Source: Aureimonas sp. AU20
GTDB lineage: Bacteria > Pseudomonadota > Alphaproteobacteria > Rhizobiales > Rhizobiaceae
Assembly (NCBI RefSeq): GCF_001442755.1
Contig: NZ_CP006367.1
Span: forward strand, 2,666,001 to 2,730,000
Direction of reading: 5' to 3'
DNA: 64,000 nt
The position numbers and the translations under genes were made by a program. Positions 1 to 63,644 of the stretch are shown here, in pieces (position 1 is the first letter of the stretch; every line of letters starts with the position of its first letter). A model generated the notes under the pieces. That model did not search any database. It was given only the letters and a program-made list of their open reading frames with translations, and was not told the origin of the DNA.

Positions 1-520
1 CCGGCACATACGCGAGCTGAAAGATAGCGAGAAGACGCCGGCTGCGCGGCGCACGCGAGCCACGGGTCCGCACGAGGACCAGTCCCACGGCCAGGGTCGA
101 AAAGCCGAGGAACACCGAATTGGCGGTCTGCCCCATCGAAACCGTTTCGGGCGAGAACGCGAACATTCCGAACGCGGCGCCCGACAGGATCGGCAACGCG
201 ACGATCCATCCGTCCATGACGCGCTTGCCCTCGAAGGCGCGCACGGCGGCGAGCAGGAAGCTGTTGTAGGCTCCCAGTCCGATGAAAAGCAGCGTCGACA
301 ACAAAAGACCCCGATCCGGAATCAAGAGGCCTGTGAGCGTCGCGGCATAGATCAGCGCACCGGCGCCGCAAAGGAGGTAGTATGCCCCTCGCCCCCTGAT
401 GAGCCAAAGCGCCACGAACATCGCACCGAATGCCGCACTCGCAAGGAGCGTGCAGAGGTGAATGGTCGGGGCGTCTGGCAAGGGCAAGCGTTCGTTCCGA
501 AGACCGTTTGGGACACGCAT
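1..520 (-). CDS. Membrane protein, N-terminal part (truncated by window edge)
   Basis: The minus-strand reading frame stays open from an ATG at 520 to the window edge, giving about 173 residues. The start has a GGAG sequence 5 nt upstream. The visible part begins with a short hydrophilic leader (MRVPNGLRNERLPLPDAPT), followed by about six hydrophobic segments separated by short Arg-rich loops, for example a run around LLASAAFGAMFVALWLIRG. The C-terminal half lies outside the window. Multi-pass membrane sensors of this shape are often followed by a GGDEF diguanylate cyclase domain in rhizobia, but that domain is not visible, so this is only a suggestion. The membrane nature is well supported; the function is unknown. 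Confidence 0.55.
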   Translation of the reverse strand, partial: MRVPNGLRNERLPLPDAPTIHLCTLLASAAFGAMFVALWLIRGRGAYYLLCGAGALIYAATLTGLLIPDRGLLLSTLLFIGLGAYNSFLLAAVRAFEGKRVMDGWIVALPILSGAAFGMFAFSPETVSMGQTANSVFLGFSTLAVGLVLVRTRGSRAPRSRRLLAIFQLAYVP

Positions 521-53113: not shown

Positions 53114-54001
53114 ATGAGCGAGCGGCGCCTTCTCATCTCGTTCTCCGCCGGGGAGTCCTCGGCTCTTATGACGAAGCTAATCAAAGAACGGTGGGGGACC
53201 CGCTACGATCGCATAGAGACCGTTCTGGCAAATACGGCGCAAGAGAGCGAGGAAACCTTGATCTTTGCGCTCCGATGCGAGCAGGCCTTTGGATGGGGAA
53301 CTGTTTGGCTTGAGGCTGTCGTAGATCCTGAACCCGGCGAAGGCACCAAGCATCATGTCGTCAGCTTTTCTACAGCCGACCGAGCGGGTGGCGTCTTTGA
53401 GGCCGTAATCGCGAAATACGGTATTCCAGGCCCAGGCTTCCTTCACTGCACAAGAGAGCTAAAGCAGCGGCCTATCACCAGCTACGCCCGCTCGATTGGC
53501 TGGGAGGCTGGAAGCTACGATACGGCGATTGGTATCCGGGCCGATGAGATTGATCGCTGCGATCCACATGCCCGCGAACTGCGCCTTCTCTACCCTCTCA
53601 TCGGCTGGGGCATTCGGAAGACCGATGTTAACGAGTTTTGGGCGGCGCAGCCATTCCGCTTGAACCTCAAGGGCTACCAGGGAAACTGCCGCTGGTGCTG
53701 GAAGAAGTCCCTACGCAAGCACCTGACGATCATGCAGGAAACGCCGGACGCGTTCGACTTCCCTGAGAGAATGGAGGCGGCGTACCCGATGGCGGGCTCC
53801 AATCCTCGAAATCAGGTGAAGCGTTTCTTCCGCGAGAGCCGCACTGTAGCCGACCTCCGGCACCTTGCTGCAACCACGCAGTTTGAGCCCGCGTCAGATG
53901 ATGCGCGCGAATATCAGACCGATCTGTTCTCGCCCCTCGCGTTGGACCTTGGCGGCGACTGCGACGAAGGCTGCGAAGTGAGCTTTGGAGAAGCAGCATG
54001 A
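53114..54001 (+). CDS. PAPS reductase-like PP-loop ATPase (phage-encoded)
   Basis: 295 residues. The N-terminal PP-loop-like motif LLISFSAGESSALM and the adenylate-handling fold of phosphoadenosine phosphosulfate reductase/N-type ATPases are recognisable. Later blocks include FLHCTRELKQRPITSY and GYQGNCRWCWKKS, with cysteines that could bind metal or an Fe-S cluster, and a C-terminal CDEGCEVS. Homologues are common in phages and may modify tRNA or DNA with sulfur, or assimilate sulfate; the substrate is not known. GGAGGG lies 5 nt before the ATG. It is the first gene after the attachment site, a typical cargo position. Confidence 0.78.
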   Translation: MSERRLLISFSAGESSALMTKLIKERWGTRYDRIETVLANTAQESEETLIFALRCEQAFGWGTVWLEAVVDPEPGEGTKHHVVSFSTADRAGGVFEAVIAKYGIPGPGFLHCTRELKQRPITSYARSIGWEAGSYDTAIGIRADEIDRCDPHARELRLLYPLIGWGIRKTDVNEFWAAQPFRLNLKGYQGNCRWCWKKSLRKHLTIMQETPDAFDFPERMEAAYPMAGSNPRNQVKRFFRESRTVADLRHLAATTQFEPASDDAREYQTDLFSPLALDLGGDCDEGCEVSFGEAA

Positions 54002-57200: not shown

Positions 57201-60200
57201 TTAGGCCGCGACGGCCCCAACGCTTTGCAGGTAGGCTTTCAGGGCGTTGTAGAGCCCCGTCTTCTGGGCGGTAGTGGTGAGCGCGCCGCCCGTGTGGACG
57301 ATGGCTACCTGAGCGTCGCCATAGCCGTTGTTGTTGCGCAGCAGGTCCAGACCCGTCGCCAGAGAAGTCGACGCGGTGGCCAGGGTGGCGAACTGCGCGC
57401 CGTCCACCACGAGCTCGGACGCGTTCGACGCCGTGCGGTTGGCAACGACATGATGCGGCGATGCGGTCGAGCCCGAGCCGCCGAGGCCGCCCGTGCTCTG
57501 GCTGACGCGCCCGCCGTGCCCCGATGCGCGCGAATGGACGTTGGAGCGCCCGTTGGCTGAACCGAAGTCCTCGCCCGTCGTGCCGTCCACCAGCGTGAAG
57601 ACGCCCATATGGGCGCTGTCCTGCTGATGCTTCGCGCCCGTCGCCGTGCTCGGGTTGAAGTTGGTCGCGGCGAACTGGTTCGACCCGTTGCCCTTGTAGC
57701 CGCGATCCTTGGTCCACGTCGGGAACGCGGTCGAGGTCAGCGTGTAGGAGGTCGAGATCAGGTTCTCGTTCGCGGCCTGCTGCGAGTGAGCCGCGACGAC
57801 ATGCAGCTCGTCCAAGACGGACAGGACACCCGCCGTCTTCAGGTCCCCGAACAGCTTGTCCAGCAGCCCTCGCCGCTTGTCGCTCGGCGGCGAAGTCATG
57901 CGCGCGACATAGGATGACGCCTCGGCGTTCGTGAACGCATAGGCGGGATAGAGGGCAAGCAGCTGATCGCGCAGGAGCGCTGCGGCTTCCTTGTGGATCG
58001 GCGTCGTCGGATGCGTCTCGTCGTTGGCATTGGTGGCACGGATCACGGATCCGGCCGCGTGGGCCACGGTCGGAGATGCGCCCGTGATGGTGACGACATA
58101 GGGACCGGAGCCCGAAACGCTGACGACTTTGAACGGGAAGTTCTGGGTCGGCACCGTCTCGACATTCGCCGTGCCGGGTTCGATCACGAACGTCTCATCC
58201 ACATCCGGCTTGTCGGCCATGGTCATGGTCGTGGCGTTCACCGCGCAATCGGCCGTCAGCGTCGAAGAGAACGACCGAAGCTTGAATTTGCTTGGCCCAG
58301 AATTGGCGTCCGAGCAGAGCGCAGCCATATCGAGGATGGCATCGGGGCCGAGTGAGACGCCAGCATTGTTGCGGATCCGCGCGTTAAGCTGGTCCTTGTA
58401 CCCTCCGAGTTCGTAGCCGATGCCGTTGACGCCCGACGTGTACCAGGGGAACTGGTTCGTCAGGTCGGTGCAGCGATAGTTCGTGAGGATGTTCTCGCTC
58501 GATGCATTCCGGGTGCCGGTCGAGACGCGCGGCGGAATGGTCCCTTGCAGGACACGGGTGTGGCCGAACGAGCGCATCTGAGCATAGAGCGCCTGCAGGT
58601 TTTTCCAGATGACGGCATCCGTGTTGCCGCCGCCCACGTCGTTGGTGCCGAGACCCGAATAGGTCAGGGTGTGGAACCGAGCATAGGCCCGGCTGAAATA
58701 GTTGTTGGCGTTCCAGTGCCCGACCTGCCGGCCACCCAGCGAGTGCGAGAAGTAGGGAATGCCGGCGGCGAACGCCGCGCGCTTGGCATAGCCGCCGCCA
58801 TTGTCGCCCACGCCGCCGCCGTCCGACAGGCGATCCGTGATGCTGTCGCCCGCGATGAACAGGGACGGGACCTGCGTCTTGCCATCCACCGGCAGGCCCA
58901 CCACCATGACCGGCGCAGGGCCGGGAAGCGTGGCGCCGCCCGAGGGCTGGGTGATGCCGCCCTGGATCATGACGAGATCAGCCGGCGCCCGCGTGTCCAC
59001 CGTTGGGTCGTAGATGTAGGATGTCCCGAGCGTCTGCCCGCAGGTGTAGACCACCGCGCCGTCAGGGATGTCCACGACGGTGTTCACGTTGATCTCAAGC
59101 GAGTCCTCGAACTCAGTCAGACCGAACATTGCCGGCGTTAATTCATCCGAGAAATAGAGATCACACCCAACAGGGACGGTGAAGGTCTGGGAGTTGCCGA
59201 ACAGGACGCGAACGATCGGCGTAGGGGCACCTGTGATTTCGACCGAGCAGGCCGAGATCGGCGTCACCGGACCCGCCAATTCCTCCGCGCTGGTCAGCGA
59301 TTCGATGCGGATGGTCGAGAAGCCGATGCGGAGCGACTTCTGCGAGCACCGCCCGAGCTTCATGGGCTTGCGTGCATACGTGCGGGTACGGGTGCCGAAA
59401 GCGCCGCGCGATGCATTGTTGACCTGCCCGGCCATGGAGGCATTCTTGTAACCTGCGGCGAGGACTGCGGGCCAATTGCCCTTGGCGTTCACGCCGACAG
59501 AGGCCGTGCTGACGCGATTGTTGTTCGTTGCGGTCGGATGAGACTCCGTGATGGAAATCGCGATGCTTTCGCCCAGCGTCAGCGATCCCGAGCCCTTAAC
59601 CACGTAAGCGTCGGTTCCATCGTCCACGATGCGAAGCTTGTTCCCCGCAACAGCCAGTGAAAGCGTAGACCCAGGCGTACGGCGCGCCACCCTGAAAAGT
59701 CTCGTTCCATCGGTTTCATCGACATAGGACGAGTAAGAGTTAGCCTGGGCTGTTTGGAACAGGTTGTTCAAGGTAACAGGAACAGATGGCGTGCGGCGCG
59801 GGTCAAGAAGGGACTCGGCAACCCTCACCTTGTCTTTCAGAAGCCGCGCGGCCTGAGTGACCATGTGGATGCCGTCGAACGTGTAGACGCCTGCCGCCGT
59901 GATGACGCTGGTATCGGCGTTGGCCGTGTGAGCGCGGGCGAGGTTCTGGCGGAACGTCAGCGTCCATGTGCCATTGCCATTGTTCGTGACGGCCTGAATA
60001 TCTTTTGCTTCGGCCTGCGCGGAGTCGCCCTGGTTCAGAATGATGCCGTCGCCGGGCTGGACAGCGAAGTTGACGGTGGCAACCTTCTGACCCGACGCGG
60101 CGTCAGCCGTGAGCCGACCCTGCTGGCTCGTGACGGCAGCGAACTTGCCCGATCCCGTCGAGCTTTCGATCGCGGAGGCCAGCTCGATATACCCGTCCAC

Positions 60201-61421
60201 ATCGGACGGGGTGCCTTTGATGTAGTTGTTGAACCCGTCAATGGAGGTTGGCGCTTGGCGAACCTGCTTTGAGGCGTCGGCGCTGCTCCAAAGGAAGCTG
60301 TTGTCTGCGTTGGTCCCCTCGTCTTTCGAGAACGAGCAGGGCAGAAGCAGCGTCTGGATCAGCCGCTTATTGCCCATCGTCTTAAGCTGGGCGTGAGCGG
60401 CCTTCGCGTCGCTCACAACGGTTGTGGCATTGCCGTTCGTCGCCGAGTTCAGGCCCATTTCGCAGAGGATGACATCGTAGGGCCAGCCCTTGGCCTCCAG
60501 CAAGGCGCGACGCTTGTCAAAGCCCTTGATTTGGACGCCAACCGGCGTGGGCGAGAGCGTGAGGTCGAGAAGCCGCGTGCCGGGAACGCCCATGTTGCCG
60601 AACGGAAGACGCCCGCTCGGTAGGGTGTTGAGAGCTCGGTCGAAGAAGCTATTCCCCCCCAACTCTTCGGCCGTGACGCCGAAAGGCATGCCCTGAGTCC
60701 GATCACCCCAAAGGATGCTATCGCCGACCTCAAGCACTGCCATGGACTTCGCAATCGCGTCCGCACCATAAGGTCGAGCGGTGGCGAGGATGGGCAGTCC
60801 GTCGTAGATCGCGATGCCGGGGGTGTTGGTGAAGAACTCGCCCGTGTTGTTCCGCAGGTTCGCGACCTGGGACACGGTGCCACTGCTGTTCATCCCGTCG
60901 CCGCGATTGCTCGGCGTGCTGATGATGGAGCGTGGCAGGTAGACCGGGCCTTGCGACGGGCGATATTGGTTAAGCGCCAGCTCGTCGGCTACGCCGTAAC
61001 GGATCACCGAGTTTGCCGGGATCACGACGGGTAACTCGTCCGTCCAAATGGCCGTGCCATCGGCAATCGTGAACGCCTCCTGACCGTTGTAGGTCAGGTA
61101 ATATTTCACGTCGTTGATCTCAGCCACGACCTGCTTGATGGGCCAATCGTTGGTGAGAGGCTGCTCGTTCGCGTACCAAGCAGCCAGCGCCAGCGAAAGG
61201 CCGTAGGTTGCCCAAGGCGGTGACGTGTCCGCAATGTAGCGCATCTTGAACAGATCGCCTGAGACGACCTGCGCACGGTTGCTCTGGACCTGAAGACGCG
61301 AGGACGAGAGCAGCGGGCGCCCGATCTTCAGACCGCCTTTGTCTGCACCCCCCGCACCAAGCGAGTTCGTCGTCAGAGCCGAGAGCGCCAGAGATCCAAA
61401 CTCAGGGCTGATCCTGCTCAT
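57201..61421 (-). CDS. Tail fibre/tail-associated protein with two SGNH-hydrolase-like domains
   Basis: 1406 residues. Two SGNH/GDSL esterase-like modules are visible: AVLEVGDSILWGDRT (GDSI near residue 233) with DGIHMVTQAARLL near 515, and SLFIAGDSITDRLSD (GDSI near 858) with NDETHPTTPIHKEAA near 1135. Both keep the nucleophile Ser and the Asp-x-x-His end motif, so both could remove ester groups (for example acetyl) from the host surface polysaccharide. The C-terminal ~250 residues are Gly/Ser/Thr-rich and look like a LamG-type beta domain. The N-terminus probably attaches to the tail. Its ATG overlaps the stop of the upstream small gene. Confidence 0.85.
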   Translation of the reverse strand: MSRISPEFGSLALSALTTNSLGAGGADKGGLKIGRPLLSSSRLQVQSNRAQVVSGDLFKMRYIADTSPPWATYGLSLALAAWYANEQPLTNDWPIKQVVAEINDVKYYLTYNGQEAFTIADGTAIWTDELPVVIPANSVIRYGVADELALNQYRPSQGPVYLPRSIISTPSNRGDGMNSSGTVSQVANLRNNTGEFFTNTPGIAIYDGLPILATARPYGADAIAKSMAVLEVGDSILWGDRTQGMPFGVTAEELGGNSFFDRALNTLPSGRLPFGNMGVPGTRLLDLTLSPTPVGVQIKGFDKRRALLEAKGWPYDVILCEMGLNSATNGNATTVVSDAKAAHAQLKTMGNKRLIQTLLLPCSFSKDEGTNADNSFLWSSADASKQVRQAPTSIDGFNNYIKGTPSDVDGYIELASAIESSTGSGKFAAVTSQQGRLTADAASGQKVATVNFAVQPGDGIILNQGDSAQAEAKDIQAVTNNGNGTWTLTFRQNLARAHTANADTSVITAAGVYTFDGIHMVTQAARLLKDKVRVAESLLDPRRTPSVPVTLNNLFQTAQANSYSSYVDETDGTRLFRVARRTPGSTLSLAVAGNKLRIVDDGTDAYVVKGSGSLTLGESIAISITESHPTATNNNRVSTASVGVNAKGNWPAVLAAGYKNASMAGQVNNASRGAFGTRTRTYARKPMKLGRCSQKSLRIGFSTIRIESLTSAEELAGPVTPISACSVEITGAPTPIVRVLFGNSQTFTVPVGCDLYFSDELTPAMFGLTEFEDSLEINVNTVVDIPDGAVVYTCGQTLGTSYIYDPTVDTRAPADLVMIQGGITQPSGGATLPGPAPVMVVGLPVDGKTQVPSLFIAGDSITDRLSDGGGVGDNGGGYAKRAAFAAGIPYFSHSLGGRQVGHWNANNYFSRAYARFHTLTYSGLGTNDVGGGNTDAVIWKNLQALYAQMRSFGHTRVLQGTIPPRVSTGTRNASSENILTNYRCTDLTNQFPWYTSGVNGIGYELGGYKDQLNARIRNNAGVSLGPDAILDMAALCSDANSGPSKFKLRSFSSTLTADCAVNATTMTMADKPDVDETFVIEPGTANVETVPTQNFPFKVVSVSGSGPYVVTITGASPTVAHAAGSVIRATNANDETHPTTPIHKEAAALLRDQLLALYPAYAFTNAEASSYVARMTSPPSDKRRGLLDKLFGDLKTAGVLSVLDELHVVAAHSQQAANENLISTSYTLTSTAFPTWTKDRGYKGNGSNQFAATNFNPSTATGAKHQQDSAHMGVFTLVDGTTGEDFGSANGRSNVHSRASGHGGRVSQSTGGLGGSGSTASPHHVVANRTASNASELVVDGAQFATLATASTSLATGLDLLRNNNGYGDAQVAIVHTGGALTTTAQKTGLYNALKAYLQSVGAVAA

Positions 61422-61759
61422 GCCGCCACCCAAGCCAGCTTGTCGCCAGAGTCAACGAACAGGTGAACATCGGTGCCAGCCGGGATGAGACGACGCGGGC
61501 CGATCGTCGCGTCAGGCGCTACGCCAATCGCCACCCACGCATCGATAGACGATCGGATGGTGAACACGGGAGCGCCAGCACCATTCCCGCCGGCAGGAGC
61601 CGAGCTTGTCGTCGTGGCGGCGCTCGCAAGCGTCTCAGACCAGACAGCCTTGGACAGAAGCGGAATGACCGCGATGGAAGACGAGGCGACACTGCCTGCT
61701 TGGCTGCGACCATAGCCACCGACAAAACCGCAAGCGACGTGGAGACCGGAAAGGGCCAT
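61418..61759 (-). CDS. Small phage structural-type protein
   Basis: 113 residues, Gly/Ala/Ser-rich (SVASSSIAVIPLLSKAVW, then TDVHLFVDSGDKLAWVAA). No signal or membrane helix. AAGGAAATCCC lies before the ATG at 61759. It overlaps the tail gene start by 4 bp, so it is probably a coupled tail or chaperone-type protein. No family recognised. Confidence 0.6.
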   Translation of the reverse strand: MALSGLHVACGFVGGYGRSQAGSVASSSIAVIPLLSKAVWSETLASAATTTSSAPAGGNGAGAPVFTIRSSIDAWVAIGVAPDATIGPRRLIPAGTDVHLFVDSGDKLAWVAA

Positions 61760-62200: not shown

Positions 62201-63130
62201 CTATACCTTTGCACGAGATTGGGCGCTTGCGAATAATCGTTTGAACATCGGCCAGGAGTCAGACGCGCGCATTAGCGTCGTGGTGGCCGTGATCTGTTTC
62301 TGTAAATGTGGGTGCCCAACGTCCTCCGTGAGGAACTGGTGGTTGCGCCTCTTATTGTCAGGATTGCGGCTCTTTAGTTCGTCCAGCACGCCTTCCGGCA
62401 GAGCCTTGTAGATGAACTCGTTTGTGAATTTGCCGACGACACCGGGGCGAGCGACGGATTTCGGATCATACCTCCACTTGTGGAGGCGGAAGATCTCTTC
62501 GTAGAAGCTGTCAGGGAACCGCTTGCTCCAAGGCAGTAGCTCTTTGGCGATGTACTTCTCTAAGATCGAATGCAGCTCACCGCGCTTGCGGACGGTTTCA
62601 TAGCCAGTTGCCTCATCGACCAAGGCTACGATGCCGACGCGCGCAAATCCGCGCATAAGGATCTCGCATTGCTGCGCGATAGGTTGCTGTTGCGCTTGGA
62701 GCTTGCCGGCTTGTCGAGCCGCTAGAACCGCCTCGCACAGCTCGACCAAGACCTCAGCTTCGTATCCGTAGGCCTTACCATTGGCAGGCGTTCGGAACAA
62801 AATCGGGTTCTGGACTCTCTCCCTTAACTCATTGGAAACAAAGGAGGAAATGATCTTTCCCCCGATGAAAAGCTCAAGCCGACTCAGGCCCTTTTTCATG
62901 GACCCGCCTTGGGCAATCGCCATTCCAGTTTGGACACCAGACGCACTCAGTACGCGCCTCTCATCGTCCAGAACATAGCACGGCAGGTCGATGTCTCCGA
63001 CACGCAGTGGGTGATCGCTCGAACCGTAGACCGCACGCGGCAACGCCTTCTCGCCGCTCCATCGTGCAATTGCTGCCTTCTTGGCATTCTCTGAGCGTTG
63101 GGCATCCTGATTGATGAGGTCGTCTGACAT
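62201..63130 (-). CDS. P63C-domain phage regulator
   Basis: 309 residues. The C-terminal ~120 residues match the P63C domain, with ILEKYIAKELLPWSKRFPDS, FRLHKWRYDPKSVARPGVVG and ALPEGVLDELKSRNP. This domain was described in phage antirepressor-type transcription regulators. The N-terminal half (AIARWSGEKALPRAVYGSSD, then CYVLDDERRVLSASGVQ) may be the DNA- or partner-binding part. GGAGG lies 9 nt before the ATG at 63130. The promoter upstream is covered by two palindromic operators, so the gene is tightly controlled and may regulate itself. Confidence 0.85.
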   Translation of the reverse strand: MSDDLINQDAQRSENAKKAAIARWSGEKALPRAVYGSSDHPLRVGDIDLPCYVLDDERRVLSASGVQTGMAIAQGGSMKKGLSRLELFIGGKIISSFVSNELRERVQNPILFRTPANGKAYGYEAEVLVELCEAVLAARQAGKLQAQQQPIAQQCEILMRGFARVGIVALVDEATGYETVRKRGELHSILEKYIAKELLPWSKRFPDSFYEEIFRLHKWRYDPKSVARPGVVGKFTNEFIYKALPEGVLDELKSRNPDNKRRNHQFLTEDVGHPHLQKQITATTTLMRASDSWPMFKRLFASAQSRAKV

Positions 63131-63195
63131 GCTCGCATTCCTCCGTATGAATGCGAGCCAATTTAAGGCTAGCATTAAAGGCGTTCAATGCGAGC
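63131..63195. promoter_or_regulatory. Two 28-bp palindromic operators in front of the P63C gene
   Basis: Half-site AATGCGAGC occurs at 63150-63158 and 63187-63195, its inverse GCTCGCATT at 63131-63139, and GCTAGCATT (one mismatch) at 63168-63176. They form two palindromes, each 9+10+9 bp, separated by 9 bp. The first half-site lies directly between the ribosome site and the start codon. This regular array looks like the operator of a phage repressor. Confidence 0.75.
63160..63188 (-). promoter_or_regulatory. Sigma-70-type promoter for the P63C gene
   Basis: On the minus strand TTGAAC (complement of 63183-63188) and TAAATT (complement of 63160-63165) are 17 bp apart. Transcription would start near 63153, 22 nt before the ATG. 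Both boxes are interleaved with the operator half-sites, so a bound repressor would block the polymerase. Confidence 0.6.
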
Positions 63196-63305
63196 CTATA
63201 GATATCCACAAGACAACCCGCCCTATCCTCACTGGTGATCCGGACGAAATCCAGCCACGCGCTAGGCGGGTGTGATGCCATCTTCTCGTTTTGCGGGAGG
63301 GTGGA

Positions 63306-63644
63306 ATGATACGAACTCAATACGCCGTCGCTGGAATGCTACTGGTCGCTTTGGCTGGATGCGGGACACCGGAAGAGCGCGCCGCCCGCGCAGCGCAGGA
63401 AGCCGCTCAGCAGGAAGCTCGCAAAGACGCTCAGTGCAAAAGCTATGGCTCTCGCCCTGACTCCGACGCCTATGTGAACTGCCGTGTCCAAATCGATCAA
63501 AGCGAAGCTGCTATCAACGCCGCAGCGGCCGAAAGAAGCGCGGCCGAGTTGAGGGCGACTGGCGCAAGGCTGATGAACGGCCAGCCCACCACCCGTTGCA
63601 CGTCAACACCCTTCGGCAATACGATCCAGACGAACTGTTATTGA
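63306..63644 (+). CDS. Small lipoprotein (phage cargo)
   Basis: 112 residues. Lipoprotein signal AVAGMLLVALAGC with lipobox LAGC, then an Ala/Glu/Gln-rich helical region (RAARAAQEAAQQEARKDAQC) and a tail with two more cysteines (TRCTST and TNCY). GGGAGG lies 6 nt before the ATG. It is divergent from the P63C gene across the operator region. Phage-borne lipoproteins may alter the host surface or exclude other phages; no direct evidence here. Confidence 0.7.
   Translation: MIRTQYAVAGMLLVALAGCGTPEERAARAAQEAAQQEARKDAQCKSYGSRPDSDAYVNCRVQIDQSEAAINAAAAERSAAELRATGARLMNGQPTTRCTSTPFGNTIQTNCY

Follow-up and report, generated by a model that had tools for sequence, protein, structure and literature searches.

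The stretch of Aureimonas sp. AU20 DNA analysed here (the window, 64,000 nucleotides) comes from a single contig of a 5.21-Mb genome (G000:C1:2666001-2730000) and carries on its minus strand a gene of the P63C family (62201..63130, ATG at 63130), whose 309-aa product matches the Pfam P63C profile over residues 189-276 (E 4.9e-33) and phrog_2384 (E 6.4e-99). The gene is located inside a prophage-like stretch; by our reckoning the public viral contig of locus L011 starts at about window position 53114 and extends beyond the window end. Directly upstream of the start codon lies an array of four short repeated units (63131..63195, minus strand), which its sequence and the spacing plans of relatives mark as a putative operator of the P63C gene, and this operator and its likely binder are the subject of this work.

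Architecture of the array and its promoter

Following the direction of transcription on the minus strand, unit 1 (core GCTCGC, 63190..63195) stands just upstream of a putative -35 hexamer TTGAAC (63183..63188), unit 2 (GCTAGC, an imperfect copy, 63168..63173) between this hexamer and a putative -10 hexamer TAAATT (63160..63165), unit 3 (GCTCGC, 63153..63158) over the predicted transcription start, and unit 4 (GCGAGC, 63131..63136) between the ribosome-binding site GGAGG (63140..63144) and the ATG, the core centres being 22, 15 and 22 bp apart. Relatives carry TTGACC (L009) or TTGACA (L018) at the place of the -35 hexamer and TATATT (L018) at that of the -10. An earlier note on this DNA, here called the sequence-only reading, had seen a good promoter in TTGAAC-17-TAAATT; the two hexamers are present at this spacing, but since each matches its consensus at 4/6 positions by manual count and the pair is absent from the output of a promoter scan of the window, that term is too strong.

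Taken as 9-bp repeats, the copies start at 63131(-), 63150(+), 63168(-) and 63187(+), with steps of 19, 18 and 19 bp, which agrees with the four alternating sites first described. Three of them are exact copies of AATGCGAGC, and because the copy at 63168 reads AATGCTAGC (one mismatch), the 28-bp palindrome at 63131-63158 is perfect and that at 63168-63195 has one mismatch. The 10-nt spacers of the two palindromes, taken before to be identical, are equal in length and differ in sequence. The half-site placed by the same note between the ribosome site and the ATG is there, as copy 63131-63139 falls between GGAGG and the start codon.

At no more than three mismatches the 28-bp palindrome occurs at 7 places in the 5.21-Mb genome, the two of the array (0 and 1 mismatch) and five others with 3 each; at no more than two mismatches it is found nowhere else in that genome. 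Single copies at no more than one mismatch are not in excess in the window (28 found, 28.1 expected), so what stands out is their clustering: any 9-mer occurring three times inside 65 bp was found once in the real window, this being the array itself, and in 3/100 window shuffles. A tandem repeat search found none. The string GCTCGCAT occurs 8 times in the 67.8 kb of its own prophage, where about 2 are expected; 3 of the 8 are in the operator, and the remaining 5 stand singly, a pair of them 198 bp apart. The cluster taken alone is notable, not overwhelming, and conservation settles the matter.

Conservation of the units upstream of P63C genes

Loci encoding P63C proteins were gathered by one genome-collection scan and by viral scans seeded by protein, alignment and relative, with the best 80 loci kept per scan, and were complemented by a same-family genome search (match in 20/394 genomes), 7 of 50 listed phage records (Mx8 excluded) and L013. 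We excluded partial matches (L026, L033, L034, L208), Mx8 (L039), two loci with less than 200 nt upstream, and L001-L009, L011 and L012, which belong to the same genome or are the same loci as L122/L123. Of 186 loci kept, 170 remained after dereplication, and units were counted within 230 nt upstream. At least one unit was present in 103 of the 170 loci, at least two in 76, at least three in 44 and at least four in 23, against shuffle expectations of 40.1, 7.1, 1.03 and 0.1; at the same thresholds the counts were 14, 0, 0 and 0 of 170 in a control inside the gene and 30, 3, 1 and 0 of 159 in a control downstream. The records behind the loci with at least two units, some of them metagenome bins, bear the names of Alpha-, Beta-, Gamma- and Deltaproteobacteria, Planctomycetota, Acidobacteria and Actinobacteria or of phages of these groups. 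The units thus do recur upstream of P63C relatives, one of the points on which the sequence-only reading had staked its proposal. For the phage switch that it considered no evidence was found; gene and operator recur together in otherwise unrelated phages.

A reverse scan of viral contigs for ATGCTTGC-6..16-GCAAGCAT returned at least 120 stretches. Among the 80 loci examined, 13 lie directly upstream of a P63C gene, with four copies within 100 nt either side in 7, three in 2 and two in 4. The other 67, probably for the most part chance matches, had the two copies demanded by the pattern (62 loci), three (4 loci) or, in L253, four.

The sites repeated upstream of P63C in phages of Paracoccus, Pseudomonas, Salmonella (ST104) and Gordonia, as well as in same-family genomes, are short, mostly GCAAGCAT or ATGCTTGC, with the variant GCCAAGCA in Burkholderia phage DC1. 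These relatives favour reading the unit as a short near-palindrome, ATGCNNGCAT, with the core GCNNGC, over the 9-bp half-site of a 28-bp palindrome that had been proposed. AT flanks on both sides, giving the full ATGCNNGCAT palindrome, were found in 39/226 cores of the loci with at least two cores, and the window copies are the GCNNGC-AT unit with a different centre, GCTCGCAT. Units within a locus share their centre in 181/262 pairs, where 127.8 were expected and the maximum of 5000 shuffles was 151. A further variant, GCAAGTAT, was present in L059, L100 and L105.

The spacing of the units follows a plan. At no more than one mismatch, the distances between core centres are 22/15/22 bp in the window, 22/14/22 in the sister L123, 21/16/21 in L120, 23/31/23 in L139 and 10/14/10 in the last four sites of L040, and the outer spacings are equal in 16/38 four-site runs, with 2.3 expected by permutation. 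Pair spacing varies from 8 to 23 bp among loci, yet tends to agree inside one locus, as expected for two equal protein units on two pairs of sites. In the window the members of a pair are about two turns apart, and since the two pairs are 37 bp (about 3.5 turns) from each other, the single DNA face suggested earlier is unlikely.

Upstream of P63C in L125, L043 and L140 there are arrays of four copies, at no more than one mismatch, of CGATAGCA or CGTTAGCA; that of L125 consists of CGATAGCA spaced 10/16/10, and the others are spaced 10/16/9 (L043) and 11/41/11 (L140). They may represent a further specificity class.

Dependence on the P63C N-terminus and protein-DNA co-variation

Many P63C proteins begin with the motif KGGxARAxxLTPEERSEIARKAAxARW. 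A regular expression and a single-seed hidden Markov model (HMM) classed this motif poorly and an iterated HMM was used, the direction being the same in all three. At least two units were found in 76/134 loci with the motif and in 0/36 without it (p 1.5e-11), and in a set of new loci in 23/49 and 0/9, respectively. In the AlphaFold2 model of L200, which has the full motif, it forms two helices separated by a short turn (residues 8-18 and 21-36), with a predicted local distance difference test score (pLDDT) of 89-91 at residues 11-30 and lower on either side. The window protein would keep only one helix of a shortened KGG..ARW motif (residues 4-24, 63059..63121, minus strand; pLDDT 67-80); its Asn15 and Ala20 correspond to motif columns 19 and 24, both of which the L200 model places in its second helix.

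Column 19 varies together with the two central bases of the unit. Loci with Ile or Val at this column (class I/V/L/M) have an A/T-only centre in 55/60 cases, and those with other residues (Ser, Asn, Gln or Ala) have a G/C-containing centre in 10/13, an association (p 1.1e-6, z 11.6) that stands apart from the other nine listed columns (z at most 1.8). Tied loci were dropped, 3/76 in the discovery set and 2/23 in the held-out set, where the rule was obeyed in 21/21 loci with a clear class (p 0.005), only 2 of these being of the G/C class. The association persisted when five related loci (L072, L081, L083, L152, L189) were removed (p 0.0011), when the window, too, was left out (p 0.0047), and among loci having at least three units (p 0.0049). 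On a tree of 94 core sequences, from which the motif was left out, there were 14 changes of residue class and 13 of base class; independent pairs changed the same way 7.2 and 7.9 times on average, the opposite way 0.5 times and showed no difference 3.3 and 3.6 times (median p 0.039 and 0.016). The window, with Asn15 and GCTCGC, and its sister of about 85% identity, with Ile and GCTAGC, agree with the column-19 rule.

Column 24 varies with the base, C or T, that immediately precedes the outer AT. Val or Ile at this column was accompanied by GCNNGTAT in 6/6 loci and Ala by GCNNGCAT in 98/100 (p 1.6e-8, z 20.7, next column 3.3), among the 106/188 loci with a clear majority base. This position was found after column 19, with no held-out set, and its changes are too few for the tree test (p 0.125).

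In L490-L513, and in the flanks of L022, L024, L027 and L032, there is a family of small alphaproteobacterial proteins (MPKGPKGEKRPADVIGNA..) that end in KGG..ARW. The N-terminal motif alone was discarded as a predictor of the operator, as these motif-bearing proteins lack one.

P63C as the constant candidate

The window prophage was compared with its sister in genome G007. By blastp of predicted open reading frames (ORFs; 114 vs 80), the P63C proteins are 84% identical and there are only three other matches, all at or below 27.5% identity, and blastn of the two neighbourhoods gave a single stretch, within the P63C gene (75.6% over 847 nt). The operator aligns just before this stretch in both prophages, with its units changed in concert from GCTCGC to GCTAGC. 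Around 160 P63C loci, no other gene family occurs in the flanks of more than 19.

A repressor encoded outside the window had been named as the other possible binder, and the prophage does carry two HTH_3 proteins, one CI-like and one Cro-like (G000:C1:2759634-2760080, L006). Their intergenic region contains a different palindrome, TATCGCA-5-TGCGATA, whose arm distance also differs from that of the array, and no GCNNGC-AT unit, and on this ground CI and Cro were set aside as array binders. Because the G007 pair shares nothing else close, the flanks vary and the CI/Cro palindrome differs, P63C is the only constant candidate. The suggestion that the binder may be P63C itself gains support from unit enrichment, the sister-prophage pairing, the dependence on the N-terminal motif and the co-variation. 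By eye, and going by what we take to be the consensus sequences, neither a CtrA-type TTAA-N7-TTAA (the spacing here being 8, and the sister lacking the pattern) nor LexA-type repeats (none seen) were accepted.

Proposed self-repression and alternative explanations

We consider it quite probable that P63C binds the array through its N-terminus and represses its own gene. The array, its conservation, its dependence on the motif and the co-variation were computed directly; the physical binding, the repression and the oligomer state we infer. P63C made from its own promoter would bind the four ATGCNNGCAT-like units, probably as dimers on two equal pairs, and would then cover the -35, the -10, the transcription start and the spacer between ribosome site and start codon, turning off its own transcription; at a low P63C level the promoter would reopen. 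The DNA would be read by the short N-terminal helical motif, in its full form a helix-turn-helix, possibly aided by the middle domain, with the NN centre associated with column 19 and the base ahead of the outer AT with column 24.

Several observations weigh against self-repression. The window's promoter is weak; the column-19 rule is broken in 8/73 discovery loci; and 34 motif-bearing loci lack an exact unit, several of these, L125, L059, L100 and L105 among them, having variant arrays and others nothing obvious. Upstream of the small proteins ending in KGG..ARW no such units were found, and the likeness of the middle domain to KilA-N/Bro-N folds is middling.

The inner palindrome could also act in the messenger RNA (mRNA), since 63131-63158 can fold into a hairpin with the ribosome site in its loop (-17.5 kcal/mol, z -4.75), and the sister (-15.9, z -4.0) retains the stem through paired changes. 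However, the predicted start lies inside the 5' arm, and the fold is weaker (-9.6, z -1.6) once the transcript is trimmed to GCAUUC.., for which reason we rejected the hairpin as the main mechanism; units 1 and 2, moreover, are at or upstream of the promoter, relatives have units in other orders and spacings, and the unit bases co-vary with the protein motif, all of which makes control at the RNA level highly improbable. Such a hairpin could add control to self-repression only if transcription starts upstream of unit 3. Nearly as improbable is that another regulator, the prophage CI or Cro or a host factor, acts on the array: the two HTH_3 proteins do look like CI and Cro, and their palindrome has TCGCA in common with the unit, but besides the differences given above the array is kept in a prophage without close CI/Cro relatives and in phages of unrelated hosts, and its presence tracks P63C's own N-terminus.

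A third alternative is that the array serves chiefly to quiet P63C activity as its cognate DNA element, and not just as an operator, in analogy to aba for BstA of Salmonella prophage BTP1. Owen et al. 2021 (PMC8585504) describe BstA (307 aa) as having a KilA-N-like domain, with a cognate DNA element located at the bstA start codon. The pairing of P63C with its operator is specific to the locus, and the place after cI is taken by P63C in phage ST104 and by bstA in BTP1. On the other hand, no sequence relation between P63C and BstA was found, four P63C proteins had no match among PADLOC models (BstA was not run there as a control), and the position of the units over the promoter is already explained by simple repression. 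We know of no defence activity for P63C, and we regard this alternative too as quite unlikely.

Relation to known systems

With 114 bits against a cut-off of 26.1, the window protein belongs to the P63C family (PF10546; 62303..62566, minus strand), which had 4314 matches at E no higher than 0.001 in one search. NCBIfam gave no match for two P63C proteins, and the only PDB match by sequence (E 0.68) was disregarded. The predicted fold of residues 34-178 (62597..63031, minus strand) bears a middling resemblance to KilA-N/Bro-N-type DNA-binding domains, its matches including the N-terminal domain of a granulovirus Orf22 and DdrC, the latter being the best Foldseek hit in PDB (E 0.06); the best viral fold match was Mx8 p63. 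This protein shares the P63C domain with the window protein and has a different inverted repeat, not the GCNNGC array, upstream. Its record reads 'anti-repressor Ant' with the note 'potential antirepressor', and it is from this name and phrog_2899 that the antirepressor label in P63C comes.

Phage regulators that repress themselves through multi-site operators are already known, such as Arc of P22 and Cro, which likewise have short sites over the -35 and -10 of their own promoter and dimers on paired sites. P63C differs from them in protein family and motif, in its GCNNGC core, and in equal pair spacings that vary by locus.

The nearest working analogue found, without sequence kinship, is BstA-aba. 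BstA (PMC8585504) resembles P63C in being prophage-borne, in its size, in a cognate DNA element where its own gene begins and possibly in a KilA-N-like region; aba, however, is 63 bp long with two CCCGCC direct repeats and extends into bstA, whereas the P63C array has four GCNNGC units upstream of the ATG. A comparison by hhalign gave a probability of 4.6% (E 0.0088 for a single comparison, 80 columns, 15% identity) and BLASTP a best expect of 2.4, so that homology of P63C and BstA was not found. The slot right after cI in these P22-like phages holds P63C in ST104 (L038) and bstA in BTP1 (L489). ST104 P63C probably starts at an ATG 36 nt downstream of the annotated start, immediately following the fourth unit.

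Gene context of P63C and other features of the prophage

The gene context of P63C differs from phage to phage. In the flanks of L010, L024, L027, L052, L061 and others, by eye, P63C stands beside insertion sequence (IS) transposase-like genes, which form two families present at 19/160 loci each, as if P63C were an IS passenger there; in six example loci of the first family (L010, L052, L053, L055, L068, L074) both the N-terminal motif and the units are absent.

A small divergent ORF (63291-63644) beside the operator has a partial match to phrog_38308 and contains LAGC, which we take to be lipobox-like. Farther away, two segments of a large tail-region protein (57201-61433) match a family of lysophospholipase L1-like esterases (phrog_8480), and a phosphoadenosine phosphosulfate reductase-like gene (53114-54001) lies at the apparent prophage edge.

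Implications for the P63C family

In the portions of the open-access literature consulted, P63C function is little described, and P63C autoregulation was not found described in that literature. Within it, the P63C-family operator and its unit are new, as are the N-terminal motif that would read it and the pair of co-varying positions. It is conceivable, although we think it rather unlikely, that P63C proteins are large, widely mobile self-contained regulators, with an N-terminal helix-turn-helix of about 28 residues and a two-position code, whose operator doubles as an identity tag distinguishing the proteins of related prophages, as aba does for BstA. The operator units help to locate P63C start codons. 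The family moves from function unknown to predicted sequence-specific, self-regulating DNA-binding proteins; the co-variation names the residues expected to set specificity, and natural pairs of protein and operator allow a direct test.
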